Shown here: in pieces, positions 30,147-45,091 of the stretch
Layout of the letters: the number at the start of each line of letters is the position of its first letter
Numbering within the stretch: position 1 is the stretch's first letter
From: Pseudomonadota bacterium
Lineage (GTDB): Bacteria; Pseudomonadota; Gammaproteobacteria; Burkholderiales; Thiobacillaceae
DNA length: 45,091 nucleotides
Assembly (NCBI GenBank): GCA_021802945.1
Contig: JAJZRE010000018.1
Coordinates: 1-45,091, forward strand
Direction: 5' to 3'
The notes under the pieces: generated by a model
Seen by the model: only the letters and a program-made list of their open reading frames with translations
Database searches by the model: none
What the model was told of the DNA's origin: nothing
Made by a program: the position numbers and the translations under genes

Positions 30147-30234
30147 ACGCGCGTGCCGGGGCCCCGACCCCCTCGCACTCCTTGAGCTTCGCCGGTGCCG
30201 CCGAAACCGGCCAGGCAGCCCCTGTTCCAGGTGG

Positions 30235-30650
30235 CCTTTCGGTGGGCTCCTTGCCGTCCAGCAGCGCGCGGATCTTATGCGCGGTCGCGGCCACCATCGG
30301 CTCGATCATGTAGCCGGCCCTGGGCATGCCGGTCGGCACCGGCGTGGGCCCGGCCGGCGGGATGTCGACGCAGACGCCGACCGGGAAGATGTTCTTGAAC
30401 GCGGGGATGCGCTGGCACGGATCGATCAGATGAAGCCGCGCGGATTGGCCAGCCCCTCGATGCCGAACACCGCGTCTCCGCCCTTGAAGGCGGGCAGCAG
30501 CATCGAATACCTGAACGGCGGCTCGTAACGCTTCTTCTTGCTGCCGTCGCTGTTCACCTCGGTGATGAACGTTCGGCACGTTCGAGATGACCGTGATCCG
30601 GTCGTCCGGCCGCGATGTTCGCGCATCCCGAACGCCATCGGCCCCGCCAA
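30235..30650 (-). pseudogene. Remnant of a sulfide:quinone oxidoreductase
   Basis: Fragments of one flavoprotein lie in two alternating minus-strand frames. About 30645-30566 reads DDRITVISNVP. About 30569-30429 reads ITEVNSDGSKKKRYEPPFRY, SMLLPAFKGGDAVFGIEG and LANPRGFI. About 30432-30235 reads LIDPCQRIPAFKNIFPVGV, then IPPAGPTPVPTGMPRAGYMIE. These match the middle and C-terminal FAD region of SQR. The FAD-binding N-terminus (about 190 residues) and the C-terminal part are missing, about 40 residues are deleted at the first junction, and a one-base shift follows RGFI. SQR oxidises sulfide and reduces quinone; this copy cannot work. Confidence 0.8.
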
Positions 30651-30752
30651 ATCGCAACGCCGGACAGCCCCGTCCCGCCCACGCGGCCAGTGGTATGATC
30701 ACGCAGCCGGCAGCCCGGCTGACCGTTTATCGATGTTGACAGAGACACCCTC

Positions 30753-31313
30753 ATGATTCGCAGAAACCCCTCCGGACATTTGCCCGTCGTGCATGAAACC
30801 GCCTTTGTCGATCCCACCGCCATCCTGTGCGGCAGGATCATCGTCGAGGAAAACGTGTTCATCGGCCCCTATGCGGTGATCCGCGCCGACGAGGTGGACG
30901 AAAAAGGCGACATGGAGCCCATCGTCATCGGCGCCCATTCCAACATCCAGGACGGCGTGGTCATCCACTGCAAGGCGGGCGGCGGCGTCACCATCGGCCG
31001 GAGTTCTTCCATCGCCCACCGCTCGATCGTGCATGGCCCCTGCACCGTGGGCAACAACGTATTCGTCGGCTTCAACTCGGTTCTGTTCAACTGCACCGTG
31101 GGCGAAGGCTCGGTCATCCGGCACAATTCGGTGGTGGAGGGCTGCACCGTTCCGCCGGGTTTCTATATCCCGTCCACCGCGAACATCCACTCCGATGCCG
31201 ACCTGGCGACGATCGAACGCGTATCGCCCCAGGCCGCCGACTTCTCCGAAAGCGTGGCCCAGGCCAACCATGAACTGGTCAAGGGCTACAAGCGCATCCG
31301 CAACGAGTTCTGA
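30753..31313 (+). CDS. Gamma-class carbonic anhydrase-like left-handed beta-helix protein
   Basis: The 186-residue protein has hexapeptide repeats (about residues 17-150) forming a left-handed beta-helix, then a C-terminal helix (about 155-185). The three zinc ligands of gamma carbonic anhydrase are in place: H72 (VIHCKAG), H89 (SIAHRS) and H94 (IVHGP), together with the R44/D46 pair (VIRADE) and Q66-D67. It may hydrate CO2 and so supply the RuBisCO pathway, or be an acyltransferase-like relative; a CcmM-like carboxysome role is unlikely because no RuBisCO small-subunit-like repeats or shell genes are present. Confidence 0.85.
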   Translation: MIRRNPSGHLPVVHETAFVDPTAILCGRIIVEENVFIGPYAVIRADEVDEKGDMEPIVIGAHSNIQDGVVIHCKAGGGVTIGRSSSIAHRSIVHGPCTVGNNVFVGFNSVLFNCTVGEGSVIRHNSVVEGCTVPPGFYIPSTANIHSDADLATIERVSPQAADFSESVAQANHELVKGYKRIRNEF

Positions 31314-31346: not shown

Positions 31347-31544
31347 TCACTTCTCGCCGCGCAATGTCGCGGCGGTCAGCCACGCGGGCAACTCACGGTC
31401 GCCCGCATTTTCCATGATGTATTGACGAATCAAGCGCCGCATCACCTGTGAGGGCGTGAGGTCCTGCTGTGCGCAGATTTCCTCGAACAGCTGCTTTTTT
31501 CTGGGATCGATCAGGACTGTGAGCCGGGCAGTACGGTTTTCCAT
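31347..31544 (-). CDS. Ribbon-helix-helix DNA-binding protein (copy 1)
   Basis: The 65-residue protein has a CopG/MetJ-type fold: strand MENRTARLTVLID (1-13) and two helices (about 14-28 and 31-46, with PSQVMRRLIRQYI). It is very close to the gene at 40131-40337: 43 of the first 56 residues are identical by eye. It is divergent from hyfB, and a perfect palindrome lies 19-37 bases upstream of its start, overlapping a possible -10 (TACAAT). This is the layout of an autoregulated repressor that could also control hyfB. No toxin partner is adjacent. Confidence 0.85.
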   Translation of the reverse strand: MENRTARLTVLIDPRKKQLFEEICAQQDLTPSQVMRRLIRQYIMENAGDRELPAWLTAATLRGEK

Positions 31545-31653: not shown

Positions 31654-33669
31654 ATGTCCGTTTTAGCAGACCTTGATGCGCATATCCTGGACCTGGCCTG
31701 GGCCGGGGTGCTTTACTGGCTGGTGCTGGGTTTTTCGGCGCCGCTGCTGCAACGCTGGCGAGGCGTGCTGGTTCACCTGGTCTTTCCGCTGAGCGCGCTG
31801 GGTGCGCTGTTTATCGCGGCCGTCGGCGTGGCCGGCCTGGCTCTGCCACCCTCGGCCATGGTGCTGCCCATCGGGCTGCCCGACCTGCCGTTTCATCTGC
31901 GGCTGGATGCATTGTCGGCCTTTTTCCTGGCCCTCCTGGGCAGTGCGGCGTTCGGGATCACGGTGTATGCCGCGGGTTACTTCCGTAGCATGCAGGCGGG
32001 CCCGCTCGCATTGGTTGGCTTGTGGTATCACCTGTTCCTGGCAGGGATGGCGACGGTGATGCTGGCCGACGACGCCTATGCCTTCATGGTGGCCTGGGAA
32101 GTGATGGCGTTGTCCTCGTACTTCCTGGTGACGACCGATCACGATGTCCCGGAAATCCGCCGCGCCGGTTTTCTCTATCTCCTGATCGCCCACGTCGGCG
32201 CCGTATCGCTGTTGCTCACCTTCGGGGTGCTCCAGGGCGGACACGGTGCCTATACCTTCGACTACATGCGCCACAGCGAAATCACGCCGTTCTGGGCTTC
32301 GGCTGCGTACCTGCTGGCCCTGTTCGGCTTCGGGGCCAAGGCGGGACTCGTGCCCTTGCACGTCTGGCTGCCCGAGGCGCACCCTGCCGCGCCCTCACCC
32401 GTATCTGCGCTGATGTCCGGGGTGATGTTGAAAACCGCGGTCTACGGCCTGCTGCGCGTCACCTTCGATCTGCTCGACCTGAGGATCGGCTGGTGGGGGA
32501 CGCTGACGCTGGCGCTGGGTCTCGTCACCGCGCTTTACGGCGTGATCTTCGCCGCCGTGCAGTCGGACATGAAACGGCTTCTGGCCTGGTCGTCGATCGA
32601 AAACATCGGCATTCTGATCGCGGCCTTCGGCCTTACGCTGATCTTCTACACCGAAGGCAAGGGCGCGCTGGCGGCGCTTAGCCTGACGGCCATGCTGTAC
32701 CATGCGATCAATCACGCCTTCTTCAAGAGCCTGCTGTTCATCGGTACCGGCTCGGTGCTGCACGCCACGGGAGAGCGGCGCATGGGCAGACTCGGCGGCC
32801 TGATCCGCTTCATGCCATGGACAGCCTGGCTGACGCTCATCGGCGCCCTGGCGATAGCCGGGTTGCCGCCGCTCAACGGCTTCGTCTCGGAATGGCTGCT
32901 GCTGCAGGCCTTCCTGCTCACGCCGGGGTTGACCCAGCCTTATCTCAACATGGTGATCCCGGTGGCTGCAGCATCGGTGGCGCTGGCGGCGGCGCTGGCG
33001 GCGTATGTCATGGTGAAGTATTTCGGCGTGATCTTTCTGGGACGGCCGCGCGACCCGGCGCTCGAGCATGCGCACGAGGCAAACTGGCCGGAACGCCTGG
33101 GCATGCTCTGGCTGGCCGCAGGCTGCGTGGCGCTGGGCCTGTTTCCCGCCCAGGTCATCGCCCGGATTGCGCCGGTCGTGCGGCACCTCACGGGACAGGC
33201 GCTGGCCAACGACGGCAACTGGCTGTTGCTCGCGCCGCTGGCAGCCGAGCGCGCCAGCTACGCGCCGCTGATTTTCCTGGCGGTGATACTGGTTGTTTTG
33301 CTGTTTACCTTCATCTGGGTACGCCGCGTCTATCACGGCCGCGTGCGCCACGCCGATCCCTGGGATTGCGGCTATCCTGAACAGAACCCCCGCACCCAGG
33401 ACAGCGCCGAAGGCTTCGGGCAGCCGATTCGCCATATCTTCGTTTCCTTCATGCGGGTCGAACGGGAAACGCCCGACCCCTTCGATCGCCACCCGCACTA
33501 CCGCGGCGACAGCCGCGACAAGCTCTGGCTGCTCCTCTACAAGCCCATCGCCGACCTGGTCGGATGGCTGTCGGCACAGGCCGGGCGCCTGCAACACGGC
33601 CGCATCCAGTGGTACCTGACCTACAGCTTCGTCACCCTGATCGTTCTGCTCGTCTTCGTATCGCGCTGA
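31654..33669 (+). CDS. hyfB: Hydrogenase-4-type antiporter subunit HyfB (NuoL/M/N family)
   Basis: The 671-residue membrane protein has about 16 helices. It has the HyfB pattern FHLRLDALSAFFLALLG near the start. Proton-path residues typical of Mrp/complex I pumps are kept: E149 (VAWEVMALSS), K229 (FGAKAGLVPLH) and K260 (SGVMLKTAVYGLL). The C-terminus has the HyfB-type extension with WDCGYPEQNPRTQ and FMRVERETPDPFD. It should translocate H+ or Na+ in the membrane arm of the complex encoded by the next five genes. No clear ribosome site precedes the ATG. Stop and hyfC start are four bases apart. Confidence 0.92.
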   Translation: MSVLADLDAHILDLAWAGVLYWLVLGFSAPLLQRWRGVLVHLVFPLSALGALFIAAVGVAGLALPPSAMVLPIGLPDLPFHLRLDALSAFFLALLGSAAFGITVYAAGYFRSMQAGPLALVGLWYHLFLAGMATVMLADDAYAFMVAWEVMALSSYFLVTTDHDVPEIRRAGFLYLLIAHVGAVSLLLTFGVLQGGHGAYTFDYMRHSEITPFWASAAYLLALFGFGAKAGLVPLHVWLPEAHPAAPSPVSALMSGVMLKTAVYGLLRVTFDLLDLRIGWWGTLTLALGLVTALYGVIFAAVQSDMKRLLAWSSIENIGILIAAFGLTLIFYTEGKGALAALSLTAMLYHAINHAFFKSLLFIGTGSVLHATGERRMGRLGGLIRFMPWTAWLTLIGALAIAGLPPLNGFVSEWLLLQAFLLTPGLTQPYLNMVIPVAAASVALAAALAAYVMVKYFGVIFLGRPRDPALEHAHEANWPERLGMLWLAAGCVALGLFPAQVIARIAPVVRHLTGQALANDGNWLLLAPLAAERASYAPLIFLAVILVVLLFTFIWVRRVYHGRVRHADPWDCGYPEQNPRTQDSAEGFGQPIRHIFVSFMRVERETPDPFDRHPHYRGDSRDKLWLLLYKPIADLVGWLSAQAGRLQHGRIQWYLTYSFVTLIVLLVFVSR

Positions 33670-33673
33670 AACC

Positions 33674-34618
33674 ATGATCACCGGAATCCTTCTGCAAATT
33701 GCCCAGACCCTGATCGCCATCCTGCTGGCACCGCTGCTGATGGGCTGGGTCAACCAGTGCCGTGCCTGGCTGCAGGGCCGCACCGCGCCGCCCCTCACCC
33801 AACCCTACCGCACGCTGCGCAAGCTGTTCCACAAGGATGCGGTGATCGCCAGCAACGCCAGCCCGCTGTTCCGGTTCGCGCCTTATTTGATCTTTTCCTG
33901 CATGGTGCTGGCGGCCGGCCTGGTACCGACCATCGCCAACGATCTGCCGTTCTCGCCGGCAGCGGATGTCATCGCCCTGGTGGGCATCCTTGCGCTGGCG
34001 CGGGTGTTCCTGGCGCTGGCCGCCATGGACATCGGCACGTCCTTCGGTACGCTCGGGGCGCGCAGGGAAATGCTGGTGTCCTTCCTGGCCGAGCCTGCTC
34101 TGCTCATGGTGTTTTTCACCGCCAGCCTGATCTCGCAGTCCACCGAACTGCCGCACATCGTCGAGACCCTGGCACAAAAGAAGTTCGCCATCTACCCCAG
34201 TCTGGCATTCGCGGCAGTCGCATTCTGGATGATCTCGGTGGCAGAAAACGCCCGTATCCCGGTGGACAACCCGACCACGCATCTGGAACTGACCATGATC
34301 CACGAAGCCATGGTCCTTGAGTATTCCGCGCGGCATCTGGCACTGATCGAATGGGCGGTGGCCTTGAAACTATTCACCTATTCCGTGCTGGGCATCGCCT
34401 TGTTCCTGCCTTGGGGCATCGCGCCCCGGGGCGATGTCGCGGCCCTTCCCCTGGCACTTGCCGCCATGGTGGCCAAGCTGGCGGCGGGCGGTGCTGCGCT
34501 GTCGTTCATGGAAGCCATCTCCGCCAAGGTGCGCCTGTTCCGCGCGCCGGAGTTTCTCGGCACCGCCTTCCTGCTGGCAGTGCTCGGCATGCTGACCCAC
34601 TTCCTGCTGGAGGTCTGA
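33674..34618 (+). CDS. hyfC: Hydrogenase-4-type membrane anchor HyfC (NuoH/HycD family)
   Basis: The 314-residue protein has about eight helices. It starts with a helix and then GRTAPPLTQPYRTLRKLF, the conserved first cytoplasmic loop of HycD/NuoH proteins. It includes the acidic loop ENARIPVDNPTTHLELTMIHEAM region (given in outline), which forms the link between the peripheral arm and the pump in complex I. It holds the peripheral subunits HyfG and HyfI to the membrane. hyfE begins one base after its stop. Confidence 0.93.
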   Translation: MITGILLQIAQTLIAILLAPLLMGWVNQCRAWLQGRTAPPLTQPYRTLRKLFHKDAVIASNASPLFRFAPYLIFSCMVLAAGLVPTIANDLPFSPAADVIALVGILALARVFLALAAMDIGTSFGTLGARREMLVSFLAEPALLMVFFTASLISQSTELPHIVETLAQKKFAIYPSLAFAAVAFWMISVAENARIPVDNPTTHLELTMIHEAMVLEYSARHLALIEWAVALKLFTYSVLGIALFLPWGIAPRGDVAALPLALAAMVAKLAAGGAALSFMEAISAKVRLFRAPEFLGTAFLLAVLGMLTHFLLEV

Positions 34619-34619
34619 C

Positions 34620-35282
34620 ATGGCGCTGAACTACCACCTGCAGATCGTCAACCTGCTCGCGGCGCTGCTGCTGCTGATCTCTTTCGCCATGCTCTCACAA
34701 CGCCGCGTCGCCAGCCTGGTGACGCTGTTCGCCTGGCAGGGCGCGGCCCTGGCCTTGTCCACGGCCATCGTCGCCTGGTCCACCGGCCAGCACCACCTGT
34801 ATTACTCGGCTGCCCTGACCCTGGGGCTCAAGGTCATTGCCATGCCCTGGTACTTCTATCGACTGATAAGAAAGCTGAACGTGAACCGGGTCGTGGAGCC
34901 GATGATCAACATCCCCACCACCATGCTGATCGGCATCGTTCTGGTGATCTTCGCCTTCAATCTGGCGCTGCCCATCTCGCAGATGTCAGGCACGGTGATG
35001 CGCTCGACCCTTGGCATCGCCCTTGCATGTGTGCTGCTCGCCTTCCTCATGATGATCACGCGCACCAAGGCCATCCCCCAGGTGATCGGCTTTCTGGCCA
35101 TGGAAAACGGCCTGTTCTTCGCCGCCACCAGCGCCACCTACGGCATGCCCCTGGTGGTGGAACTGGGGGTAGCCCTGGATGTGCTGGTCGGCGTCTTCGT
35201 GCTCGGCATCTTCATCTTCCAGATCCGCGAGACCTTCGATTCGCTGGATCTGAAACACATGGAAAAGCTCAAGGAAAAATAA
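34620..35282 (+). CDS. hyfE: Hydrogenase-4-type subunit HyfE (NuoK-like)
   Basis: The 220-residue membrane protein has about seven helices. The first half matches the HyfE-specific region and the second half resembles NuoK, with IGFLAMENGLFFAA carrying the conserved intramembrane Glu. It is part of the membrane arm. It lies between hyfC and hyfF; a separate hyfD is absent, so the pump has two NuoL/M/N-type chains (HyfB, HyfF) instead of the three of E. coli Hyf. Confidence 0.9.
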   Translation: MALNYHLQIVNLLAALLLLISFAMLSQRRVASLVTLFAWQGAALALSTAIVAWSTGQHHLYYSAALTLGLKVIAMPWYFYRLIRKLNVNRVVEPMINIPTTMLIGIVLVIFAFNLALPISQMSGTVMRSTLGIALACVLLAFLMMITRTKAIPQVIGFLAMENGLFFAATSATYGMPLVVELGVALDVLVGVFVLGIFIFQIRETFDSLDLKHMEKLKEK

Positions 35283-35285
35283 GGC

Positions 35286-36737
35286 GTGGAAATTTACTGG
35301 CTACTCGGCATTCCGCTGTCAGGCGGCATTTTCATGGCGCTGTGGGGCTTCCGGCGCAATGCGCCGGAGATCAACGCACTGTTCAGCCTGCTCACCCTGG
35401 CCGTGGCAGCGCTGCTGACCGCGCGCATCGTCGAGGAAGGGCCGATGACGGTGGGCAACGGCTGGTTCTTCATCGATTCCTTCAACGTCTTCCTGGTCAC
35501 GCTGACCGCCTTCGTCGCCTTCACCACCGCGCTGTTTTCGCGTCCCTACATGCGCATCGAAGAAGAACACGGCCGTCTGAGCGCCGCCCGCCTGCGGCTC
35601 TACCACAGCAGCTACCAGATTTTCATCGGCATGATGATCCTGGCGCTGACCACCAACAACATGGGCATCCTGTGGGTGTCGATGGAAGGCGCAACGCTCG
35701 CCACCGTGCTGCTGGTCTCGCTGTACCGCACGCCGGCGTCGCTGGAAGCGGCCTGGAAGTACTTCATCCTGTGCGGCGTCGGCATCGCACTGGCGCTGTT
35801 CGGCACGATCCTGCTCTACTTCGCTGCGGAAAAGGTGCTGGGATCGGGCGGCACCGCGCTGCTGTGGACGCAATTGAACGGGGTGAAGACCCAACTGGAA
35901 CCCACGGTGCTCCAGTTGGCTTTCGTCTTCCTGCTGGTCGGCTACGGGACGAAAGTGGGACTGGTTCCCCTGCACAGTTGGCTCCCGGACGCCCATGCCG
36001 AAGGCCCCACGCCGGTATCCGCCGTACTCTCAGGCCTGCTGCTCAACGTCGCGCTCTATGCGGTGATGCGCTCCAAGGTGCTGGTCGACGGCGCGCTCGG
36101 CAACGACATGGCCGGCAACCTGATGATGGGGTTCGGCCTCCTGTCGGTCGTGGTCGCCGCTTTCCTGATCAATCGCCAGACCGACGTGAAACGCATGTTC
36201 GCCTATTCCTCCATCGAGCACATGGGCCTCATCACCTTCGCCTTCGGCATGGGCGGTGCCGTGGCGAGCTTCGCGGGGCTCCTGCATATGACCATGCATT
36301 CGCTCACCAAATCCGCCATTTTCTTCACCGTCGGACATGCCACGCAAAAGGCCGGCACGCAATTGATGAGCGACATTCGCGGCCTGATCAAGACCAACCC
36401 CACCATCGGCTGGGGGTTGATGCTGGGCACCATCGCCATCCTCGGCGTGCCGCCGTTCGGCGTGTTCGCCAGCGAGTTCCTGATCATCACCACCGCCATG
36501 CACGAGCACCCCTGGGCGACGCCCTTCCTGCTCATTGCGCTGGGCGTGGCGTTTGCCTCCATCTTCGGCAAGGTGCAGCCGATGGTGTTCGGTGAGACCG
36601 GACTGCCGCGGCTGCCGCACATGCCCGCGCTCACCCCCGTCTTCGTCCACCTCGGCCTGGTGCTGATGCTGGGCCTGTTCATCCCGCCTTATCTCGCGAC
36701 CTGGTATCGCCAGGCCGCGCAATTGCTGGGAGGCTGA
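35286..36737 (+). CDS. hyfF: Hydrogenase-4-type antiporter subunit HyfF (NuoL/M/N family)
   Basis: The 483-residue protein has about 14 helices and a GTG start at 35286, three bases after the hyfE stop, with AAGG upstream. Pump residues are kept: E134 (LWVSMEGATLA) and K223 (GYGTKVGLVPLHSWLPDAHAEGP, in part). QTDVKRMFAYSSIEHMGL and HSLTKSAIFFTVGH are typical of HyfF. It is the second ion-translocating chain of this complex. Confidence 0.93.
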   Translation: MEIYWLLGIPLSGGIFMALWGFRRNAPEINALFSLLTLAVAALLTARIVEEGPMTVGNGWFFIDSFNVFLVTLTAFVAFTTALFSRPYMRIEEEHGRLSAARLRLYHSSYQIFIGMMILALTTNNMGILWVSMEGATLATVLLVSLYRTPASLEAAWKYFILCGVGIALALFGTILLYFAAEKVLGSGGTALLWTQLNGVKTQLEPTVLQLAFVFLLVGYGTKVGLVPLHSWLPDAHAEGPTPVSAVLSGLLLNVALYAVMRSKVLVDGALGNDMAGNLMMGFGLLSVVVAAFLINRQTDVKRMFAYSSIEHMGLITFAFGMGGAVASFAGLLHMTMHSLTKSAIFFTVGHATQKAGTQLMSDIRGLIKTNPTIGWGLMLGTIAILGVPPFGVFASEFLIITTAMHEHPWATPFLLIALGVAFASIFGKVQPMVFGETGLPRLPHMPALTPVFVHLGLVLMLGLFIPPYLATWYRQAAQLLGG

Positions 36738-36738
36738 G

Positions 36739-38295
36739 ATGCCAAAATACCTTGACGACATCGCTCTCACCCCGCAGACGGAGGGCGGCTCCGTCTGGCG
36801 TTGCCGGCTCGAACCCGGGCGCCTGCCCGCGTTTGCCCGCACCATCCAGGACGAAGGCGGCCAGCTGCTCGCCCTGTGGGGCTCGGACGACCGCCACCTG
36901 GGACGCAATTTCACCGTTCACGTCGCCTTCCTGTCCAGCGTCGGCCTGATCTGGACGACCAGCGAACTCGACTGCGAACAACCCGCCTATCCGGACCTCG
37001 CCCATATTTTCCCGCAGGCCGATCGCATGCAGCGCGCGGCCTTCGACCTGCTCGGGATTCGTGCCCTGGACGCAGTGGACGGCCGTGCATGGCTGCGCCA
37101 CGCTGCCTGGGCCGAAGATGCGTTCCCCCTGCGCAAGGATTTCCCGGCACACGCCGCCCGCCGTTCGCCACACCCGCAAGTCGTCCCCTATCCCTTTATC
37201 CGCGTCGAAGGCGAGGGCGTGCACGAAATTGCAGTCGGCCCCATCCACGCCGCCACCATCGAGCCGGGGCACTTCCGTTTCTCCGTCATCGGCGATCGCA
37301 TCCTCAGGCTGGAGGAGCGACTGGGATACACGCACAAGGGAACGGAAAAACGCTTCGAAGGCCTGGACCTGGATACCGGCGTGAAACTCGCCGGCCGCGT
37401 CTCCGGCGATTCGCATACGGCATTCGCCTGGGCCTATTGCATGGCGGTGGAAACGGCCACCGCCTGCAGCGTGCCGGATCGCGCCATCGGGCTGCGTGCG
37501 CTGTTTCTTGAAATGGAACGCGTGGCAAATCATCTGGGCGACCTCGGCTTTCTTGGCAACGATGTCGCGCTGACGTTCGGCTTCGTGCAGTTCTGGCGGC
37601 TGAAGGAAGACTGGATGCGCATGTCGGCCAGGCTGTTCGGGCATCGCTACCTGTTCGACATGATCCTTCCCGGCGGGGTCGCGACGGACATCGATGCGCG
37701 CGGCCAGGCCGAGCTGGATGCCCTGTGCGAGCGCATCGCGGGGGAGGTGCAGACCCTCAGGCACATTTACGACGAGCACACCGCCCTGCAGGATCGCTTC
37801 GCCAACACCGGCATCGTTGCACCGGACATGGCCGCGCGCCTGGGCCTCACCGGACTGGCCGGGCGCGCCAGCAGTCAGGCGTGGGATGCGCGCGTGCAGT
37901 TCCCTTGCGCACCGTATGACCGGCTCGACGTGAACATGGCGCTGCAGAAATCGGGCGATGTCCTGGCGCGCGCCGAGGTGCGCTTCACCGAGGTATTCGA
38001 GTCGCTGCGGCTGATCCGCCAGTTGCTCGAACAGCTTCCCGCCGGCGCGCTTCGTGCACCCTGCACGCAAGCGGCGGGAGTTTGCGAAGGCCTGGGCTGG
38101 GTGGAAGGATGGCGTGGCCCGGTGATCGTGGCGGTACGCATCGGCACCGATGGCAGACTCGACCGCGTGCATCCGCACGATCCTTCGTGGCAGAACTGGC
38201 CGCTGGTGGAGGTGGGCGTGCTCGGCAACATCGTTCCCGATTTTCCGCTCATCAACAAATCGTTCAACCTCTCCTACAGCGGACCGGATTTGTAA
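36739..38295 (+). CDS. HyfG-like large subunit lacking NiFe-site cysteines (Ehr type)
   Basis: The 518-residue protein fuses a NuoC-like N-terminal domain (about 1-145) to a NuoD/[NiFe]-hydrogenase large-subunit domain (about 150-518, with RVEGEGVHEIAVGPIHA). The first ligand motif, RVCGIC in HycE, reads RVSGDS (220-225). The last motif, PCYSC, reads LSYSG (511-515), at the very C-terminus. All four Cys are thus replaced and no NiFe centre can form. There is no C-terminal extension for cleavage by a maturation protease. This fits Ehr (energy-converting hydrogenase related) complexes. The substrate is unknown; quinone or an unidentified donor are possible. Confidence 0.88.
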   Translation: MPKYLDDIALTPQTEGGSVWRCRLEPGRLPAFARTIQDEGGQLLALWGSDDRHLGRNFTVHVAFLSSVGLIWTTSELDCEQPAYPDLAHIFPQADRMQRAAFDLLGIRALDAVDGRAWLRHAAWAEDAFPLRKDFPAHAARRSPHPQVVPYPFIRVEGEGVHEIAVGPIHAATIEPGHFRFSVIGDRILRLEERLGYTHKGTEKRFEGLDLDTGVKLAGRVSGDSHTAFAWAYCMAVETATACSVPDRAIGLRALFLEMERVANHLGDLGFLGNDVALTFGFVQFWRLKEDWMRMSARLFGHRYLFDMILPGGVATDIDARGQAELDALCERIAGEVQTLRHIYDEHTALQDRFANTGIVAPDMAARLGLTGLAGRASSQAWDARVQFPCAPYDRLDVNMALQKSGDVLARAEVRFTEVFESLRLIRQLLEQLPAGALRAPCTQAAGVCEGLGWVEGWRGPVIVAVRIGTDGRLDRVHPHDPSWQNWPLVEVGVLGNIVPDFPLINKSFNLSYSGPDL

Positions 38296-38296
38296 G

Positions 38297-38830
38297 ATGG
38301 CGACGTTCCTGATCCTCCAGCAGATTCTCAAGACCGGCATCGTCTCCGAGCCGGCGCCCGAGGCGGATCCCGCGCTGCGCACACGCGAGCAGGCGCTGCA
38401 CGCGGACATCCTCAAGGTCTTCGGCCAGGCCGTGGCGATCCGCCACGTCGACGCCGGCTCCTGCAACGGCTGCGAACTGGAAATCCACGCCCTCAACGGG
38501 CCGCACTACAACATCGAGGGCATGGGCGTGAAATTCGTGGCCAGCCCCCGCCATGCCGACCTGCTGCTGGTTACCGGGCCGGTGACGCGAAATATGGAAA
38601 TCGCGCTGAAACGCGCGTTCGAGGCCGTCCCGGAACCCAAGTGGGTGGTGGCCATGGGCGACTGCGGATGCACTGGCGGGATGTTCGGAGAAAATTACGC
38701 CACGTGCGGAAAAGTCTCCAGCGTCATCCCGGTCGATGTCGAGGTGCCGGGCTGCCCGCCCACCCCGATCGCCCTGTTGCAGGGCATCCTCGCCGCCGTC
38801 AGCGGGGGCAGGCAGGATGCGGTGGGCTAG
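38297..38830 (+). CDS. hyfI: HyfI-like Fe-S small subunit (NuoB family)
   Basis: The 177-residue protein contains ligands for one [4Fe-4S] cluster: C56 and C59 (GSCNGCE), C123 (GDCGCTGG) and C153 (PGCPPTP). This corresponds to the N2 cluster of complex I and the proximal cluster of hydrogenases. The electron-transfer part is therefore intact although the neighbouring large subunit has no NiFe site. No separate ferredoxin-like subunit (HyfH/NuoI) is in the cluster. The start is one base after the large-subunit stop. Its stop shares CTAG with the stop of the convergent small gene. Confidence 0.92.
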   Translation: MATFLILQQILKTGIVSEPAPEADPALRTREQALHADILKVFGQAVAIRHVDAGSCNGCELEIHALNGPHYNIEGMGVKFVASPRHADLLLVTGPVTRNMEIALKRAFEAVPEPKWVVAMGDCGCTGGMFGENYATCGKVSSVIPVDVEVPGCPPTPIALLQGILAAVSGGRQDAVG

Positions 38831-39072
38831 GACGTGGCCTTGGGTTTCCTGCCGGGGCTGGCGGCCGGGATATATCCCGACACCCGGGCCAACACGCCTT
38901 CGATTTTCCTGCCGTTGATGAATCGCGTCGAGTGGCACGCGATGATGTCGCCCCGCTTCGACATCTCGGACAGATAGACGCGCACGTCTTCCAGCGGGAT
39001 GCGGGTCGCCGCGGCGATCTCGGAGTCGAGCTGCTCACCCCGGGTTTTCAGGTAGGTGTGGATTTTCTGCAT
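38827..39072 (-). CDS. Hypothetical small protein, possible winged-helix
   Basis: The 81-residue protein begins MQKIHTYLKTRGEQLDSEIA and contains TRIPLEDVRVYLSEMSKRGDII, which looks like a winged-helix or helix-turn-helix core (about 15-45). A beta-like stretch and a basic tail (PGRKPKATS) follow. It could be a small DNA-binding protein, but no family was recognised. The start overlaps the end of the upstream spermidine-synthase-like gene by 25 bases, and its stop overlaps the hyfI stop by four, so it is packed against both neighbours. Confidence 0.65.
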   Translation of the reverse strand: MQKIHTYLKTRGEQLDSEIAAATRIPLEDVRVYLSEMSKRGDIIACHSTRFINGRKIEGVLARVSGYIPAASPGRKPKATS

Positions 39073-40079
39073 GGATGGGACTCCTTGGTTTTGAGATTTG
39101 GCAAGGCTTTAGCCGAGGCAGTCTTCGCCCAGCGCAATTCGGCGCCCTCGCGCAGGCTGTCCAGAATGGCCGTGAAATCAAGCGGGAATTGCTCGGCGAG
39201 CCGCCCCGCCCGTTCTTCCAGCCGTTCCCAATCGAGGGAACAGCCGGCTTCGACAAAAGCAAAAGCAATATGGTTATCGCCCCCGGGAACCGTCCCCACC
39301 TGGATGCGTCCCGCGAAGGCGTCGTTCAGCAGGGCCAGGTGCCTGGACCAGTATTTTCTTGGCCCGGCGAAGTTGGCGACGAGCAGGCCGCCCGCCCTGA
39401 GCCGGTTGCGCGCCGCCCGGTAGAAGCCGCGATCGAGAAAAGTCGGGGCGATGCCCTTGTCGTCGAAGCCGTCCAGCAGCAGAACGTCGGTATCGCCTTC
39501 CGCGGCGGGCAGATACGCGGCCGCATCGGCCTGGATGATCGCCAGGCGTTTGTCGTCGGGGACGCCGAACGCCTCACGCAGCGCGATGACATCGGGATTC
39601 ACCTCGACGACGGTCAGGCGTGCGCGCGGCAGATGACGGTGGCAGAACTTGGCCAGCGAACCGCCCCCCAGCCCGACCATCAACACATGATCCGGGTCAG
39701 GCACGAACAGCAGAAAGGCCATCATCTTGCGGGTGTAGGCAATATCGAGGGCGAAGGGATCGTCGATGCGCATGGAACTCTGGATGAAATCCAGACTGAA
39801 CAACAATTGCCGCGTCTCGCCGTCGTCGATGATGAAAGGCCGGGCGTAGCGGCCGGTCAGGATCTGCTCATAGAGCGCCACAGGGTCGCTCTGCGCCGGT
39901 TCGAGCACGCGCACCTTGACCGGCTCGCCCGACACTTTGCCGGGCAGCTCCAGCAGCGGGGGGCTGCACAGGGGGTCAAGATTTGCGGAATGGGGCACGT
40001 GCTGGAAGAGCCTATAAAATCTGCCAGTTACCCATGGCAAAGATGTCGATTGAGCAAAACCGTATTGAATGACATTCAT
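39048..40079 (-). CDS. Spermidine synthase-like methyltransferase-fold protein
   Basis: The protein has about 343 residues with a polyamine synthase-type Rossmann domain: VLMVGLGGGSLAKFC (binding loop) followed by LTVVEVNPDVIALR and DVLLLDGFDDKG, where spermidine synthases have the DxxD-like acceptor region. FSLDFIQSSMRIDDP is the family's substrate-gate region. Several such proteins in bacteria do not make polyamines, so the substrate is open. The start is uncertain: ATG 40079 lies inside a palindrome; GTG 39998 would give about 316 residues and fits the family better. It is divergent from the copy-2 RHH gene. Confidence 0.78.
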   Translation of the reverse strand: MNVIQYGFAQSTSLPWVTGRFYRLFQHVPHSANLDPLCSPPLLELPGKVSGEPVKVRVLEPAQSDPVALYEQILTGRYARPFIIDDGETRQLLFSLDFIQSSMRIDDPFALDIAYTRKMMAFLLFVPDPDHVLMVGLGGGSLAKFCHRHLPRARLTVVEVNPDVIALREAFGVPDDKRLAIIQADAAAYLPAAEGDTDVLLLDGFDDKGIAPTFLDRGFYRAARNRLRAGGLLVANFAGPRKYWSRHLALLNDAFAGRIQVGTVPGGDNHIAFAFVEAGCSLDWERLEERAGRLAEQFPLDFTAILDSLREGAELRWAKTASAKALPNLKTKESHPCRKSTPT

Positions 40080-40100
40080 ATGATAATACAATTATCATAT
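40078..40100. promoter_or_regulatory. Palindromic operator upstream of copy-2 RHH gene
   Basis: ATATGATAAT-ACA-ATTATCATAT is a perfect dyad with 10-bp arms, 31 bases before the RHH start at 40131 and in the divergent gap with the spermidine-synthase-like gene. It shares the core TAAT-N3-ATTA with the dyad at 31563-31581. It could form the binding site for one or both RHH proteins. Confidence 0.65.
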
Positions 40101-40130: not shown

Positions 40131-40337
40131 ATGGAAAACCGTACCGCCAGGATGACGATCCTGATCGACCCCCTCAAAAAACAAATTTTCGAGGACATCT
40201 GCGCCCAGCAAGACCTCACTTCATCGCAGGTGATTCGCAAGCTGATGCGCCAGTACATCCTCGACAATGCGGGGTCGCGTGAACTGCCCAAATGGCTAAG
40301 CGGGCATGCCGCCAAGGCTGCAAGTCCATCGCAGTGA
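40131..40337 (+). CDS. Ribbon-helix-helix DNA-binding protein (copy 2)
   Basis: The 68-residue CopG-type protein has strand ENRTARMTILID and helices with KKQIFEDICAQQDL and SQVIRKLMRQYIL. It is a paralogue of the protein at 31347-31544, with changes mostly conservative (L/M, V/I, E/D, R/K). It ends with a short Lys/Ala/Ser tail. A perfect palindrome lies upstream, and the next gene starts inside its stop codon (GTGA), so the two are translationally coupled. It probably represses its own unit and possibly the hyf cluster. Confidence 0.88.
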   Translation: MENRTARMTILIDPLKKQIFEDICAQQDLTSSQVIRKLMRQYILDNAGSRELPKWLSGHAAKAASPSQ

Positions 40338-40754: not shown

Positions 40755-43112
40755 TTAGCGCGTCAGGCCGGCGTAGAGCATTGGCAGTTTTTCCGGCAGC
40801 CGCTGCACGTGGTCGACCACCATGTAGTTCTTCTGCCCGAAGATGCGGCTGACGTAGTTGTCGGCGCGCGGGTCGAGGCTCATGCAGTAGGTCGTCACGC
40901 CGTTGCGGGCGATTTCTTCCACCGCCTTCTTGGTGTCGTAGCGCAGGTACTGCGGATCGCGCACGTCGATGTCGGCCGGTTCGCCGTCGGTGATGACGAT
41001 CAAGAGCTTCTTCGCCGAGCGCTGCAGCTTCAGATGATGGCCGGCGTGGCGGATCGCCGCGCCCATGCGGGTCGACAGCTGGCCGGTCATGCCGGCGAGC
41101 TTGGCCTTGGGCACCTCGTCCCAGTGCTGGTCGAAGTCCTTGAAGCGGTAGTACTCGACGTCGTGGCGGCCGTCCGAGCAGAAGCCGTGGATCGCGAAGG
41201 GATCGCCCACCTTGTTGATCGCATCGGCCAGCAGCACGCAGGCCTGCTGCGTGAGTTCGCGCACCGAGTATTCCTGGTCCTGCACCTTCTCGTTGGTCGA
41301 TTCGGAAAGGTCGAGCAGCACCAGGATCGAGAAGTCGCGCGTCTTCCTGACCGAGCGCATCATGATGCGCGGGTCGGGCTGGTTGCCGAGCCGGATGTCG
41401 ATGAAGCTCGCGATCGCCGCGTTGATGTCGATCTCGTCGCCGTCCTCCAGCTTGCGGATGCGCTGCACGCCTTGCGGCTGCATCGCGTCGAGCAGGAATT
41501 TCATGCGGTGGATCTCGCGCTTGTACTGGGCGGTGATGTCGTCGATCACCTGAAGATCGCCCGACTTGGCGCGCTTTTCCAGCACCGTGGCCCAGGCCGG
41601 ACGCTCCAGCTGGATCTGGTAATCCCACTCGGAGTAGTGGAAGGGCTCGGACACCGGCTCCTTGCCTTCCATCTCGTTGAAGGACTTGCCGTTGCTCTCG
41701 TCGCCGATATTCTCGTAGGGGAACAGCTCGGTGCTCAGCACCCAGATTTCCTCGGCGTCGTCGCCGGCCGTCTCGACGTCGATCTCGTTGATCATCTCCA
41801 TCACGCTGACGTTCTTGCGGACCTGCTTGACGCGCTCGTAGCCGGCGCCGGCCGCCTTGTCGAAATCGAACTCCTCGAATTCCCAGAAGTAGCGGTTGTC
41901 GTCGCGATACGGCGCGCTCAGCACATCGGTGCGCGCGTTGAACGGGATCTTCTTCTGGCTCAGGCTGTGCGCCAGCTGCACGCCGATCTCCCACGACGTG
42001 CCGTTGGCGTCGAGCCTGTCCTGCGCGGCGGCGAACAGCATGCGGCCCTCGTTGACCCAGGCATCGTCGTCCCGGTAGGTTTCGTCCAGCAGCGCGCGCG
42101 CCAGCCGGTTCAGGTAATCGCCGACGCTGGCGCCCATCTCGGGCGTGGCGCTGTGCAGCTTGCTCCAGAGCTGCTTCAGACCCGGGAAGCGGCGGATCGA
42201 CAGGGCTTCGACGCGGGCATCCTCGATCACCGAGATCACGGCCATCTGCATCGGGTTGAGCGCTTCCGCGGAAATCGGCTGCTTCGTTTCCACCACGTGC
42301 GCGGCGCAGTGCGCGGCTGCGGCGCGATAGAGCTCAAGCCCCGACACCGGCTCCCGGCCCTCGACGGTCCAGTCGTCGTAGGCGTCGGGCAGGTGCAGCA
42401 GGTAATCCTCGATGTAGGGGCGATAGCCTTCGCGGACCTCGAAGTCGCCGGAGGTCGGGCGCATGAAGAAGTCGCGTCCCCACAGCGCGCGCAGGTACAT
42501 GTTGATGCGGCGCTGCACGTCCACCAGCAGGGTCCCCTTGCGCTCCTTCTGCAGCATCGCGAGCGATTCCTTCGACTCCAGGCCGAAATAGCGGATCTGC
42601 TCTTCGTAGTTCGTGCGATGCGCATGCGCGCCCCACAGCGCCCAGCGCCGCAGGCCGCCGAGCGTCAGGTGCTGGAACAGCACCTCGAGCTTGTCGAGCA
42701 TCGCCCGCACGCCGCGCGGCGCCTGCGCGATCAGGGTGTTGATGAACTGCAGGTACTTGAGAAACAGTTCCGCATCGCCCAGCCGGTTGGCCGCGGTCGG
42801 CGCGGTGGCGAGCAGCAGCTCGATCACCGCCCCCGAGGTTTTCGAGGCCAGCATCAGCGAGGCGGTGGCGAGATCGGCCACCACGTCCTCGCCCACTTCC
42901 TTGGCGACCTGCGGCGCTTTCTCGATCCAGGTTTCCACCAGCGAATCGCCACGCCCCAGACCCCGTATGGCCGACACCCCTTTCAGGTAGTTATCCAGGC
43001 CGCGCGGGCTGAACACCTTGGTTGCGTCGTGCCACGTCGCGTTCAACGCGCTGCGGGTGTGCTCGGACAGGTCTTCCAGCAGTTCAGCGTAGTCTTCGAG
43101 TTTGATCGACAT
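40755..43112 (-). CDS. cbbO: RuBisCO activase subunit CbbO (von Willebrand factor A domain)
   Basis: The 785-residue protein has a long helical N-terminal part (1-590) and a C-terminal VWA domain with the MIDAS motif DLSES (D601, S603, S605). It works with the AAA+ ring CbbQ: CbbO binds inhibited RuBisCO and the ring remodels it so that tight-binding sugar phosphates leave the active site. Met at 43112 is chosen because the upstream frame is spacer repeats. It is the last gene of the cbbL-S-Q-O unit. A 137-bp spacer with a long CTAG-rich stem-loop separates it from cbbQ. Confidence 0.95.
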   Translation of the reverse strand: MSIKLEDYAELLEDLSEHTRSALNATWHDATKVFSPRGLDNYLKGVSAIRGLGRGDSLVETWIEKAPQVAKEVGEDVVADLATASLMLASKTSGAVIELLLATAPTAANRLGDAELFLKYLQFINTLIAQAPRGVRAMLDKLEVLFQHLTLGGLRRWALWGAHAHRTNYEEQIRYFGLESKESLAMLQKERKGTLLVDVQRRINMYLRALWGRDFFMRPTSGDFEVREGYRPYIEDYLLHLPDAYDDWTVEGREPVSGLELYRAAAAHCAAHVVETKQPISAEALNPMQMAVISVIEDARVEALSIRRFPGLKQLWSKLHSATPEMGASVGDYLNRLARALLDETYRDDDAWVNEGRMLFAAAQDRLDANGTSWEIGVQLAHSLSQKKIPFNARTDVLSAPYRDDNRYFWEFEEFDFDKAAGAGYERVKQVRKNVSVMEMINEIDVETAGDDAEEIWVLSTELFPYENIGDESNGKSFNEMEGKEPVSEPFHYSEWDYQIQLERPAWATVLEKRAKSGDLQVIDDITAQYKREIHRMKFLLDAMQPQGVQRIRKLEDGDEIDINAAIASFIDIRLGNQPDPRIMMRSVRKTRDFSILVLLDLSESTNEKVQDQEYSVRELTQQACVLLADAINKVGDPFAIHGFCSDGRHDVEYYRFKDFDQHWDEVPKAKLAGMTGQLSTRMGAAIRHAGHHLKLQRSAKKLLIVITDGEPADIDVRDPQYLRYDTKKAVEEIARNGVTTYCMSLDPRADNYVSRIFGQKNYMVVDHVQRLPEKLPMLYAGLTR

Positions 43113-43119
43113 AAGGCGA

Positions 43120-43247
43120 GAGGGGCTAGGAGTTAGGGGCTGGGGGGCTAGGGGTAGAGCGGCCTTCGACCGCGCTTGATCTGGATTCAGGGGCGCGGGC
43201 TGTGCCCGCACATTCCCTAGCCCCTAAATCCCAGATCCTAGCCCCTC
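43120..43247 (-). repeat. CTAG-rich inverted repeats between cbbQ and cbbO
   Basis: GAGGGGCTAGGA (43120-43131) is the exact complement of TCCTAGCCCCTC (43236-43247). TTAGGGGCT (43133-43141) pairs with AGCCCCTAA (43219-43227) and CTAGGG with CCCTAG. The whole spacer can fold into one long stem. CTAG occurs four times in it. The same GGGGCTAGG element is present between cbbS and cbbL. Confidence 0.8.
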
Positions 43248-43249
43248 AC

Positions 43250-44053
43250 TCAAAAGAACGTCGACACCGCCGCGTCCAGCGCGTCGCGCATGTCGGGATC
43301 GTCGGTGATCGGGCGCACCAGCGCGACGCGGCAGGCGGCCTGCGGATTCACGCCCTTGGCGATCAGCGAACCTGCGTAGATCAGCATGCGGGTCGACAGG
43401 CCCTCGTCGAGGCCATGGCCCTTGAGGTTGCGGCTGCGCTCGGCGATCGACACCAGCTTGCCGGCGATGTCGGCATTGACGCCGGACTCGTGCGCGACGA
43501 TCTCGGTTTCGATGGCGTGCTCGGGATAGGTGAAGTCCAGCCCGCCGAAACGCTGCTTGGTCGACTGCTTCAGATCCTTCATCAGGCTCTGGTAGCCGGG
43601 GTTGTACGAAATCACAATCTGGAAATCGGGGTGGGCGTGCACCAGCTCGCCCTTCTTTTCCAGCGGCAGCACGCGGCGGTTGTCGGTCAGCGGGTGGATC
43701 ACCACGGTGGTGTCCTGGCGCGCTTCCACCACTTCGTCCAGATAGCAGATCGCGCCGTGGCGTGCGGCGATCGCGAGCGGCCCGTCCTGCCACTCGGTGC
43801 CGGACGCGGACAGCAGGAAGCGGCCGACCAGGTCGGACGCGGTCATGTCCTCGTTGCACGCCACCGTGATCAGCGGCTTGCCGAGCTTGTACGCCATGTA
43901 TTCGACGAAGCGCGTCTTGCCGCAGCCGGTCGGCCCCTTGAGCATCATCGGCATGCGCACCGAATAGGCGGCTTCGTACAGCTCGACCTCGTCGGCGACG
44001 GGACGGTAGTAAGGTTCTGTGGTGACGCGATATTGATCGACGATGTTGCTCAT
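43250..44053 (-). CDS. cbbQ: RuBisCO activase AAA+ ATPase CbbQ
   Basis: The 267-residue MoxR-type AAA+ protein has Walker A GPTGCGKT (40-47), Walker B AICYLDEV (101-108) and a C-terminal [12 protein letters not shown] block with the sensor-2 Arg. It forms a hexamer that, with CbbO, reactivates RuBisCO using ATP. AGGAG six bases before the ATG is a good ribosome site. A terminator separates it from cbbS. A weak promoter (TTGCCG-N18-GATAAA on the minus strand, about 44075-44105) may give separate expression. Confidence 0.96.
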
Positions 44054-44130
44054 GGGGGCTCCTAGAATGTGGGGCTTATTTATCCGCGAATGACGCGTTT
44101 TCCGGCAAACACGGCATTCGCGGGCAAACA

Positions 44131-44163
44131 AAAAGCCCCCGCGCCCTGCGGGCGACGGGGGCT
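44131..44163 (-). terminator. Terminator/attenuator between cbbS and cbbQ
   Basis: On the minus strand AGCCCCCG-T-CGCCC-GCA-GGGCG-CGGGGGCT is followed by TTTT, a strong Rho-independent terminator 22 bases after the cbbS stop. It would end most RuBisCO transcripts and let only part of them reach cbbQ and cbbO. Confidence 0.88.
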
Positions 44164-44184
44164 GTTACGGTCTCCCGTCGCGGC

Positions 44185-44541
44185 TTAAACAGTCTTGCCG
44201 CGGTAGATCACCATCGATGCGCCCTGGCTCTGCGAGAAGTTGTCGTAGCCAATCAGACGGACGTGGTTGTTCGGGTTGGCCTTGTGGCAGGCGTCGGCTT
44301 CGGCCAGCACGCGGTCCACATCGGTTTCGCCGAACATCGGCAGCTTCCACATGTACCAGTAGGAATCCATCATGTGCTCGGGCTCGATATGCTCGATCGC
44401 CGGGTTCCAGCCTTTCTTCACCAGGTACTCGACCTGCTTCTTGATGCTGTCCTTGTCCATGGCGGGCAGGTAGGAGAAGGTCTCGAACTTGCGGCTGGCG
44501 GGATCGCTCAGGCGGCTTTTGTAATCCATCACTTCAGACAT
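44185..44541 (-). CDS. cbbS: RuBisCO small subunit, form I
   Basis: The 118-residue protein has the small-subunit pattern [36 protein letters not shown] and [17 protein letters not shown] (in part). It caps the octamer of large subunits. Length and the start region fit form IA. AAAGGAA lies 7-13 bases before the ATG. It is transcribed after cbbL across a 95-bp spacer with a long stem-loop. Confidence 0.97.
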
Positions 44542-44553
44542 TTGGGTTCCTTT

Positions 44554-44626
44554 CTAGGATCTAGGATTTAGGATCCAGGGGCTAGGGTGGGCAGGTTTTC
44601 CCTAGCCCCTAATTCCTAGCTCCTAG
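44554..44626 (-). repeat. Long CTAG-rich stem-loop between cbbL and cbbS
   Basis: AGGGGCTAGGG (44577-44587) and CCCTAGCCCCT (44600-44610) form a perfect 11-bp stem with a 12-base loop. Outside it CTAGGATCTAGGATTTAGG pairs with CCTAATTCCTAGCTCCTAG with two mismatches and a short bulge, giving nearly 30 paired positions. There is no T-run. Six CTAG tetramers occur within about 75 bases. Confidence 0.8.
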
Positions 44627-44636
44627 CCCCTATCAA

Positions 44637-45091
44637 TTACTTGTGCGCGACGTCCAGCTTGTCGACGGTGTCGAACTCGAACTTGATCTCTTTCCACGTT
44701 TCCATGGCGATCTTCAGTTCCGGCGAGTTCTTGGCCGCTTCGGTCAGGATGGCCTTGCCTTCCTTCTCGACCTGGACGCCCTTGTTGCGGGCTTCCACAC
44801 AGGCTTCCAGCGCGACGCGGTTGGCGGCGGCGCCGGCGGCGTTGCCCCAGGGGTGGCCGAGCGTGCCGCCACCGAACTGCAGCACGGAATCGTCGCCGAA
44901 GATGGTGACCAGCGCGGGCATGTGCCACACGTGGATGCCACCCGAGGCGACCGGCATCACGCCGGGCATGGAGCCGAAGTCCTGGTCGAAGAAGATGCCG
45001 CGGCTGCGGTCTTCCTTGATGAAGCTGTCGCGCATGATGTCGATCCAGCCCAGGGTCGCTTCGCGGTCGCCTTCCAGCTTGCCGACGACGG
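44637..45091 (-). CDS. cbbL: RuBisCO large subunit, form I, C-terminal part
   Basis: The frame runs out of the window at 45091, so only the last 151 residues are seen. These include the end of the TIM barrel with [42 protein letters not shown] and the C-terminal [25 protein letters not shown] (all in part). The enzyme fixes CO2 on ribulose 1,5-bisphosphate. Association with cbbS, cbbQ and cbbO instead of carboxysome genes points to the form IAq type. The tail ends KLDVAHK. Confidence 0.97.

Follow-up and report, generated by a model that had tools for sequence, protein, structure and literature searches.

A six-subunit Ehr-type complex, akin to complex I and the group-4 hydrogenases, encoded near carbonic anhydrase and RuBisCO genes, with a possible role in inorganic-carbon acquisition

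Introduction

What does a hydrogenase-like complex do once the cysteines that would hold its NiFe centre are gone? This question is raised by a six-gene operon of a Thiobacillaceae bacterium (Burkholderiales, Pseudomonadota). The operon lies in the 45,091-nucleotide stretch of DNA analyzed here as a whole (the window), which is contig C16 in a draft genome 2.55 Mb in size and 87.6% complete.

Energy-converting hydrogenase-related complexes (Ehr) were reportedly treated by Coppi in 2005 and Marreiros in 2013, works known to us as cited elsewhere. In the accessible parts of three later papers, Ehr complexes carry a HycE/NuoD-like large subunit devoid of CxxC pairs, encoded with syntenic membrane genes (PMC4378227, PMC10284858, PMC6349859). 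The family name also appears in the accessible part of PMC7894505, and the available portions of PMC10284858 and PMC4378227 give the function of Ehr as not known. For Acidithiobacillus, the motifs SGD[TS][TS][AV][GA]Y and NLSYSGHDL were printed in 2018 (PMC6002666, available in part).

Results

A large subunit with an altered NiFe site

The operon is a compact array of genes in the order B-C-E-F-G-I, running from 31654 to 38830 with intergenic gaps of 1 to 4 bases. Its subunits, and the two altered motifs of the large subunit, are as follows.

31654..33669, + strand: subunit B, HyfB-like antiporter-type membrane subunit (Proton_antipo_M; NCBIfam hydrogenase 4 subunit B at 892.7 bits, above the cut-off of 667)
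33674..34618, + strand: subunit C, HyfC/NuoH-like membrane subunit (NADHdh, 2.6e-33)
34620..35282, + strand: subunit E, HyfE-like membrane subunit (NCBIfam hydrogenase 4 membrane subunit, 88.4 bits, under the cut-off of 136; no match in Pfam)
35286..36737, + strand: subunit F, HyfF-like antiporter-type membrane subunit (NCBIfam hydrogenase 4 subunit F at 861.1 bits, above the cut-off of 543)
36739..38295, + strand: subunit G, Cys-less NuoC-NuoD/HycE-like large subunit of 518 aa (profile, phmmer and alignment)
37396..37413, + strand: first former ligand motif of G, RVSGDS (residues 220-225), opposite RVCGIC (alignment)
38269..38283, + strand: second former ligand motif of G, LSYSG (residues 511-515), opposite PCYSC, with the protein ending three residues on (alignment)
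38297..38830, + strand: subunit I, NuoB/HyfI-like small subunit (four conserved Cys; start codon placed by reading)

Subunit G matches both Complex1_30kDa and Complex1_49kDa in Pfam, as a NuoC-NuoD fusion, and its residues 39-516 align to E. coli HycE (7z0s_E) with an E value of 2.1e-59 in phmmer. We aligned the window protein with MAFFT to the best 80 of at least 585 relatives, together with HycE, HyfG, and NuoCD. The cysteine columns of HycE and HyfG are occupied in the window protein by S222, S225, S512, and G515. Among the 81 rows formed by the window protein and these best 80 of at least 585 relatives, S222, S512, and G515 are each invariant (81/81), position 225 is serine in 68, threonine in 9, and alanine in 4, and cysteine occurs at none of the four ligand columns in any row. 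The original prediction that both cysteine pairs are replaced (RVCGIC by RVSGDS, PCYSC by LSYSG) is thereby confirmed by phmmer and alignment alike, and the contrary case, other cysteines at the ligand positions, is found in none of the 81 rows. R220, G223, D224, and D517 are likewise invariant in these rows.

A conserved polar motif now stands at the altered site, which shows no sign of decay. Residues 503-518, which include the second motif, have a mean conservation of 0.962 versus 0.731 for the whole of G, and only 8 of 503 segments of equal width are as conserved or more so; for residues 217-225 the corresponding count is 28 of 510. G itself is the least conserved subunit, with a mean identity to the window protein of 63.6%, as against 70.3 to 82.2% for the others. 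A second motif so well conserved in a fast-evolving subunit indicates that the site has been kept and remodeled and is not a ruin. In addition, all 80 relatives (the best 80 of at least 585) end exactly three residues past the SYSG-type motif and carry no maturation tail; we take this endpoint to be the cleavage point of mature HycE.

The NuoCD tyrosine and histidine columns that we take to be those of the complex I quinone site correspond to G223 and I174 in G, so neither residue is kept. Among the matches listed, the closest named relative is in a Hydrogenophilales MAG (94%), and Thiobacillus MAGs come next.

Structural models of G agree with its sequence-based placement. A first model, for which 26 rows were used, was of low quality (mean pLDDT 68.4). 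A second, computed from 76 rows, reached a mean pLDDT of 78.8, with residues 141-200 and 495-518, the latter including the second motif, below 50; it superimposes on HycE 7z0s_E with a TM score of 0.83 in Foldseek. Given the low pLDDT around the second motif, the model lends support to the overall fold but none to any particular arrangement of the altered site. A chain of the archaeal MBS complex, 6u8y_L, appears among both the sequence and the Foldseek matches of G.

The remaining subunits

The Fe-S cysteines of subunit I (C59, C62, C126, and C156) are present in 77/77 rows. Together with the Complex1_30kDa and Complex1_49kDa matches of G, this bears out the earlier claim that the NuoC-NuoD fold and the Fe-S small subunit are intact. 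Charged residues of membrane subunits B, C, and F are conserved in relatives, and an antiporter-type membrane arm of this predicted composition fits a role in ion movement. Complex I relatives move ions by means of antiporter-type subunits, of which there are two here, and a NuoH-like one. Ion flow and the uphill feeding of electrons were both guesses of the original prediction. HyfA, HyfD, HyfH, and HyfJ have no counterpart among the six operon genes, nor has the NADH module NuoEFG.

Relation to [NiFe] hydrogenases

One alternative is a group-4 [NiFe] hydrogenase that either still works by means of unusual ligands or has decayed. NCBIfam assigns B and F to hydrogenase 4 above the model cut-offs, as the original prediction had expected of standard annotation; the expectation failed for G, whose best NCBIfam hits are Nuo and Fpo models only, all below cut-off. 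The HycE fold of G and the presence of HypD in the window's own genome point the same way as the names of B and F. We nevertheless regard this reading as barely credible. It is opposed by the Cys-free ligand columns and absent tail described above, by a motif that is conserved and not decaying, and by the surroundings of the operon in 157 loci, none of which contains a HypA-, HypB-, HycH-, or HycI-like ORF.

Genome sampling adds to this. We searched 200 genomes of the window's order, 60 of which have a G match at an E value of 1e-60 or better, and counted as Ehr carriers the 56 with a match of 1e-120 or better; a phylum-wide sample of 299 genomes contains 57 carriers. Weaker matches, with E values of 1e-69 to 1e-87, were left uncounted in 4 order and 5 phylum genomes, along with one partial match (G339). 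Eight of the weak matches were fetched. Five are Cys-bearing hydrogenases that keep (R)(V/I)CGIC, DPC(Y/F)SC, and a tail, and the other three form a second Cys-less group.

HypD was not found in 23 of the 56 order carriers, 17 of which are at least 90% complete. HypD is nonetheless commoner in Ehr genomes (33/56) than in the others of the order (31/144; p 1e-6), an excess that cuts against the argument from HypD absence. It probably arises from Ehr and HypD both following RuBisCO genomes, RuBisCO being present in 45 of the 64 HypD genomes of the order.

In a 45-row tree whose sampling excludes the Ehr sequences already published from Geobacter, Nitrospira, or Sulfobacillus, 34 Ehr rows form a single clade (100/100). 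The Cys-less rows, 37 in all, group together (99/95) apart from HycE, HyfG, and the five Cys-bearing enzymes; the tree comes with a warning of long branches. The alignment, the missing tail, the HypD absences, and the separate Cys-less clade support an Ehr-type complex that cannot be an ordinary [NiFe] hydrogenase, in line with the Ehr assignment first made from the sequence. We describe it as a six-subunit Ehr-type complex, related to complex I and to the group-4 hydrogenases but lacking a NiFe site.

Several loci depart from the single-copy arrangement. The second Cys-less, HycE-like group (L166, L167, and L168) has RVSG as its first motif and an AG.DR-type end in two of its three members, and joins the Ehr clade by long branches; genomes G045 and G010 bear both kinds. 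L055 has a second B-C-E-F set, of 46-56% identity, downstream of the operon, and L103 has two whole Ehr gene sets in tandem.

Genes around the operon in the window

The operon is flanked by genes of inorganic-carbon metabolism.

30753..31313, + strand: gamma-carbonic anhydrase (gamma-CA) of the Cam/CcmM-N type, 186 aa (best NCBIfam match CcmM, 8.7e-37, below cut-off; carbonic anhydrase matches in the PDB)
31347..31544, - strand: small ribbon-helix-helix (RHH) gene between the gamma-CA gene and the operon (PF19839 RHH_9, 9e-39)
40755..45091, - strand: RuBisCO cluster of cbbL (truncated where the window stops), cbbS, cbbQ, and cbbO, converging on the operon (synteny in relatives)

The gamma-CA gene lies on the same strand as the operon, 340 bp upstream, with the opposite-strand RHH gene in between. 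Its H72, H89, and H94, presumably the zinc ligands, align with the histidines of Cam, and these three residues together with R44, D46, Q66, and D67 are invariant in 9/9 rows; the algal CAG1 (9f5x_u) is among the matches of this protein. In the RuBisCO cluster, cbbL is the sole profile match (PF00016 at C16:44694-45086, 3.0e-45), and we take cbbS, cbbQ, and cbbO to be correctly named from sequence and gene order. A similar second RHH frame, read by similarity, lies at about 40140-40337 (+) before the RuBisCO cluster; the two frames flanking the operon possibly denote a shared regulator. Between Ehr and the RuBisCO cluster stands a spermidine-synthase-like gene (39048-40091, -), and ORFs of its cluster (c15) occur in 13 loci.

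The window contains no SulP gene. In L004, the nearest locus among the matches listed, a Pyr_redox_2 oxidoreductase and a SulP lie between a 142-aa ORF and the gamma-CA gene. The corresponding stretch of the window, 30140-30740, comprises about 600 bp without SulP, and its reverse strand resembles a remnant of the L004 oxidoreductase; the missing stretch may reflect either a deletion or an assembly fault. One SulP match lies elsewhere in the window's genome (C12). A DabA match at C46:19-903 (6.7e-55), cut by the contig end, suggests from its sequence that this genome probably also holds a DAB system.

Neighborhoods in relatives

We clustered the ORFs of 137 loci and identified neighbors in clusters that span four or more loci; 80 of the loci are in set A and 57 in set B, the latter representing 55 of the 56 order Ehr genomes with the window's own left out. 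The sets were kept separate since some contigs occur in both. Among loci with at least 2.5 kb of upstream sequence, a same-strand SulP and/or gamma-CA gene lies upstream within 4.5 kb in 35 of 59 set A loci and 15 of 47 set B loci, leaving 32 of the 47 in set B with neither. Where the neighbor is directly adjacent in set A, the gap is under 100 bp in 19 of 31 cases. Gaps can be as little as 3 to 36 bp. PF00916 (SulP) was found in 3/3 upstream transporters scanned; the SulP proteins scanned score below the BicA cut-off. A few loci (L029, L107) have a TauE-type exporter where SulP would otherwise stand.

Other carbon-related genes recur less often. In L020, a DabB-like gene and then DabA (PF10070, 3.6e-246) follow directly downstream of subunit I; DabA is within reach in this one of 80 set A loci and in 0 of 57 set B loci, and occurs anywhere in the genome in 10 of the 56 order Ehr genomes. 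A protein weakly similar to CsoSCA, the carboxysomal carbonic anhydrase, is encoded in the stretch in 11 loci, some contigs being counted twice; the one scanned scores 1.6e-5 in Pfam and below cut-off in NCBIfam. Labeled cbb genes are found nearby mainly in Thiobacillus-like loci and in L074. Genes for a sigma-54-type kinase and regulator often diverge from the upstream SulP and gamma-CA genes, in 22 loci each over both sets together.

A formate-linked complex, either an FDH-Ehr as in Margulisbacteria or a formate hydrogenlyase as in Acidithiobacillus and Sideroxydans, has been proposed in print (PMC6349859, PMC7894505, PMC2621215, and PMC5178258, each available in part). An FdhF-like ORF, however, is encoded near the operon in one of the 157 loci (L057), the search having covered the operon surroundings; on this count we dismissed a link to formate as a neighbor effect, and as an account of the complex we judge it very improbable.

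The carbon setting is strong in the window's order and hardly seen in 20 loci drawn from across the phylum, where a SulP-like neighbor occurs only in L158 (27% identity) and nothing matches the gamma-CA or cbb queries. Other recurrent neighbors (clusters c29, c35, c38, c43, c44, c48, and c53) accompany the operon in L089, L090, L091, and L094, which are RuBisCO-negative; such neighbors could be a clue to a role of Ehr outside autotrophy.

Proximity and co-occurrence

Of the 56 order carriers, 15, spread over six families, have a SulP gene no more than 15 kb from Ehr, whereas random placement of SulP clusters would give 0.78 (P at most 5e-6 by simulation). Fifteen of the 56 Ehr genomes have a gamma-CA of this type, and in 9 of these 15 (8 of 14 if the window is excluded) it is found within 15 kb of Ehr, against 0.17 expected. 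This null model takes no account of contig ends, of the grouping of genes in operons, or of common descent, and related genomes are non-independent events. The P values therefore exaggerate how many independent events there are, and the fact that six families are involved is a better guide. All 15 genomes with SulP near Ehr have RuBisCO, and in 14 Ehr genomes without RuBisCO, SulP is present but away from Ehr.

Ehr carriers are enriched in RuBisCO, which was counted in 37/56 versus 37/144 other genomes in the order (p 2e-7) and in 36/57 versus 51/242 in the phylum (p 2e-9). Family f76 supplies 30 of the 57 phylum carriers; without its listed members the contrast is 13/27 versus 18/208 (p 2e-6). 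RuBisCO-like matches with E values of about 1e-59 to 1e-73, form IV-like by score alone, were left uncounted (13 order and 3 phylum genomes). No RuBisCO was counted in 19 of the 56 order carriers and 21 of the 57 phylum carriers, so what Ehr does in general cannot be bound to RuBisCO. We rejected RuBisCO as its only partner on account of the order carriers without it and of the adjacency of SulP and gamma-CA in loci that have no labeled cbb gene nearby.

Discussion

The strongest clue to function, one that the original prediction left out, is the company that the operon keeps: a gamma-CA upstream in the window, and SulP, carbonic anhydrase, and in one case DAB genes in relatives. We lean, with guarded confidence, towards the view that Ehr in this autotroph lineage serves inorganic-carbon acquisition as a putative ion-translocating partner. 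As the operon encodes neither a ferredoxin nor an NADH subunit, an outside soluble donor would have to dock on subunit I and deliver reductant to its Fe-S cluster, or else membrane potential alone would drive the complex. The membrane arm would then move H+ or Na+. Its movement may carry off, one way, the proton released by CO2 hydration and so render the gamma-CA unidirectional, or it may supply the ion gradient for bicarbonate import by SulP; either route would enlarge the bicarbonate pool available to RuBisCO. More generally, Ehr would be an ion-moving module recruited to carbon uptake in these autotrophs.

Several observations weigh against a carbon role. The window has no SulP, and its gamma-CA stands 340 bp off behind an opposing RHH gene, so any co-transcription with the operon is putative. 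Two-thirds of the set B loci with sufficient upstream sequence (32/47) have neither neighbor, the 20 phylum loci hardly show the link, and carriers with no counted RuBisCO make up 19/56 of the order and 21/57 of the phylum. The SulP proteins scanned fall below the BicA cut-off, members of the SulP family also carry sulfate, and in L029 and L107 a TauE-type exporter replaces SulP.

These transporters invite another explanation, a system for sulfur anions or sulfane sulfur resembling the archaeal MBS, in which the altered site would act on sulfur compounds while SulP or TauE carried sulfate or sulfite. Both transporter families include sulfur-anion carriers; an MBS chain matches G by sequence and by fold; and several G carriers among the matches listed are titled Thiobacillus or Sulfuricella. 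Many others are titled Gallionella or Gallionellaceae, however, which are iron oxidizers, and a sulfur role sits poorly with a gamma-CA that lies by the operon in 9 of the 15 genomes having it, its histidines intact in 9/9 rows, and with the DabA of one locus. We consider this explanation unlikely.

A purely energetic role deserves somewhat more weight, though it too remains doubtful: Ehr would spend proton motive force on pushing electrons uphill, for example to ferredoxin, and carbon-uptake genes would adjoin it as autotrophy genes cluster. The invariant Fe-S cysteines of subunit I, the antiporter-type arm with its conserved charges, and the enrichment of Ehr in RuBisCO genomes speak for such a role. 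Against it, HyfA- or HyfH-like ORFs occur in only 2 of the 157 loci, same-strand SulP and gamma-CA genes persist where no labeled cbb gene is near, and glycine and isoleucine occupy the two quinone-site columns.

Within the preferred assignment to carbon acquisition, a bolder and only tentative version would cast Ehr as a vectorial carbonic anhydrase or a bicarbonate pump, powered by redox chemistry or by membrane potential, in autotrophs other than cyanobacteria, the gamma-CA being docked on the arm as in plant mitochondria and the former NiFe pocket (S222-G-D224 and S512-Y-S-G515) handling protons or bicarbonate.

Comparison with known systems places the complex among relatives of diverse function. 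Like Ehr elsewhere, it combines a ligand-less HycE/NuoD-like large subunit with Fe-S, NuoH-like, and antiporter-like subunits in one operon; unlike Ehr in the literature found here, it is arrayed in many members of the window's order with SulP and gamma-CA, near RuBisCO. It shares with E. coli hydrogenases 3 and 4 a near full-length alignment, the fold, and the gene order B-C-E-F-G-I, but it lacks the NiFe cysteines, the tail, and the HyfA, HyfD, HyfH, and HyfJ genes. In plant and algal mitochondrial complex I, a gamma-CA likewise accompanies a complex I-like machine, whereas the link to Ehr is known here from gene adjacency. The cyanobacterial NDH-1MS has Cup proteins and a quinone site; in contrast, the gamma-CA beside Ehr has a gene of its own, and G keeps neither of two quinone-site residues. 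NDH-1MS and NDH-1MS' are complex I relatives that couple ferredoxin oxidation to CO2 hydration, and DAB/DAC (DabA-DabB) hydrates CO2 at the expense of proton motive force, DAB2 being proposed to run on membrane potential alone (PMC13144422, available in part). DAB and Ehr have in common an antiporter-type membrane subunit tied to inorganic-carbon capture, and in L020 a DabB-like gene and DabA lie directly downstream of Ehr. Ehr, however, contains Fe-S and NuoD-like subunits and comes without its own DabA, and any CO2 activity of the complex is putative.

Ehr and its ligand-less motif were already known; the SulP and gamma-CA setting was not found in print within the accessible parts of the literature. 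Our search returned no paper that ties Ehr to SulP, gamma-CA, or bicarbonate uptake, which is weak evidence of absence given that sources were partly accessible and subscription journals lay mostly outside its coverage. A 2024 minireview of inorganic-carbon toolkits lists SulP, SbtA, DAC, and carbonic anhydrases, and its main text is free of the terms 'hydrogenase', 'hyf', and 'complex I' (PMC10880623).

Ehr is widespread (56/200 order and 57/299 phylum genomes) and is annotated as hydrogenase-4 or formate hydrogenlyase; if our assignment is correct, a false prediction of H2 metabolism would be removed from many genome papers. The link to a bicarbonate transporter and a carbonic anhydrase makes the role of Ehr concretely testable. 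If that role is true, chemolithoautotrophs without carboxysomes beside their form I RuBisCO would possess an added system for inorganic-carbon uptake, and if the vectorial reading also holds, parts of complex I would have furnished a further route to CO2 concentration, beside NDH-1MS and DAB.
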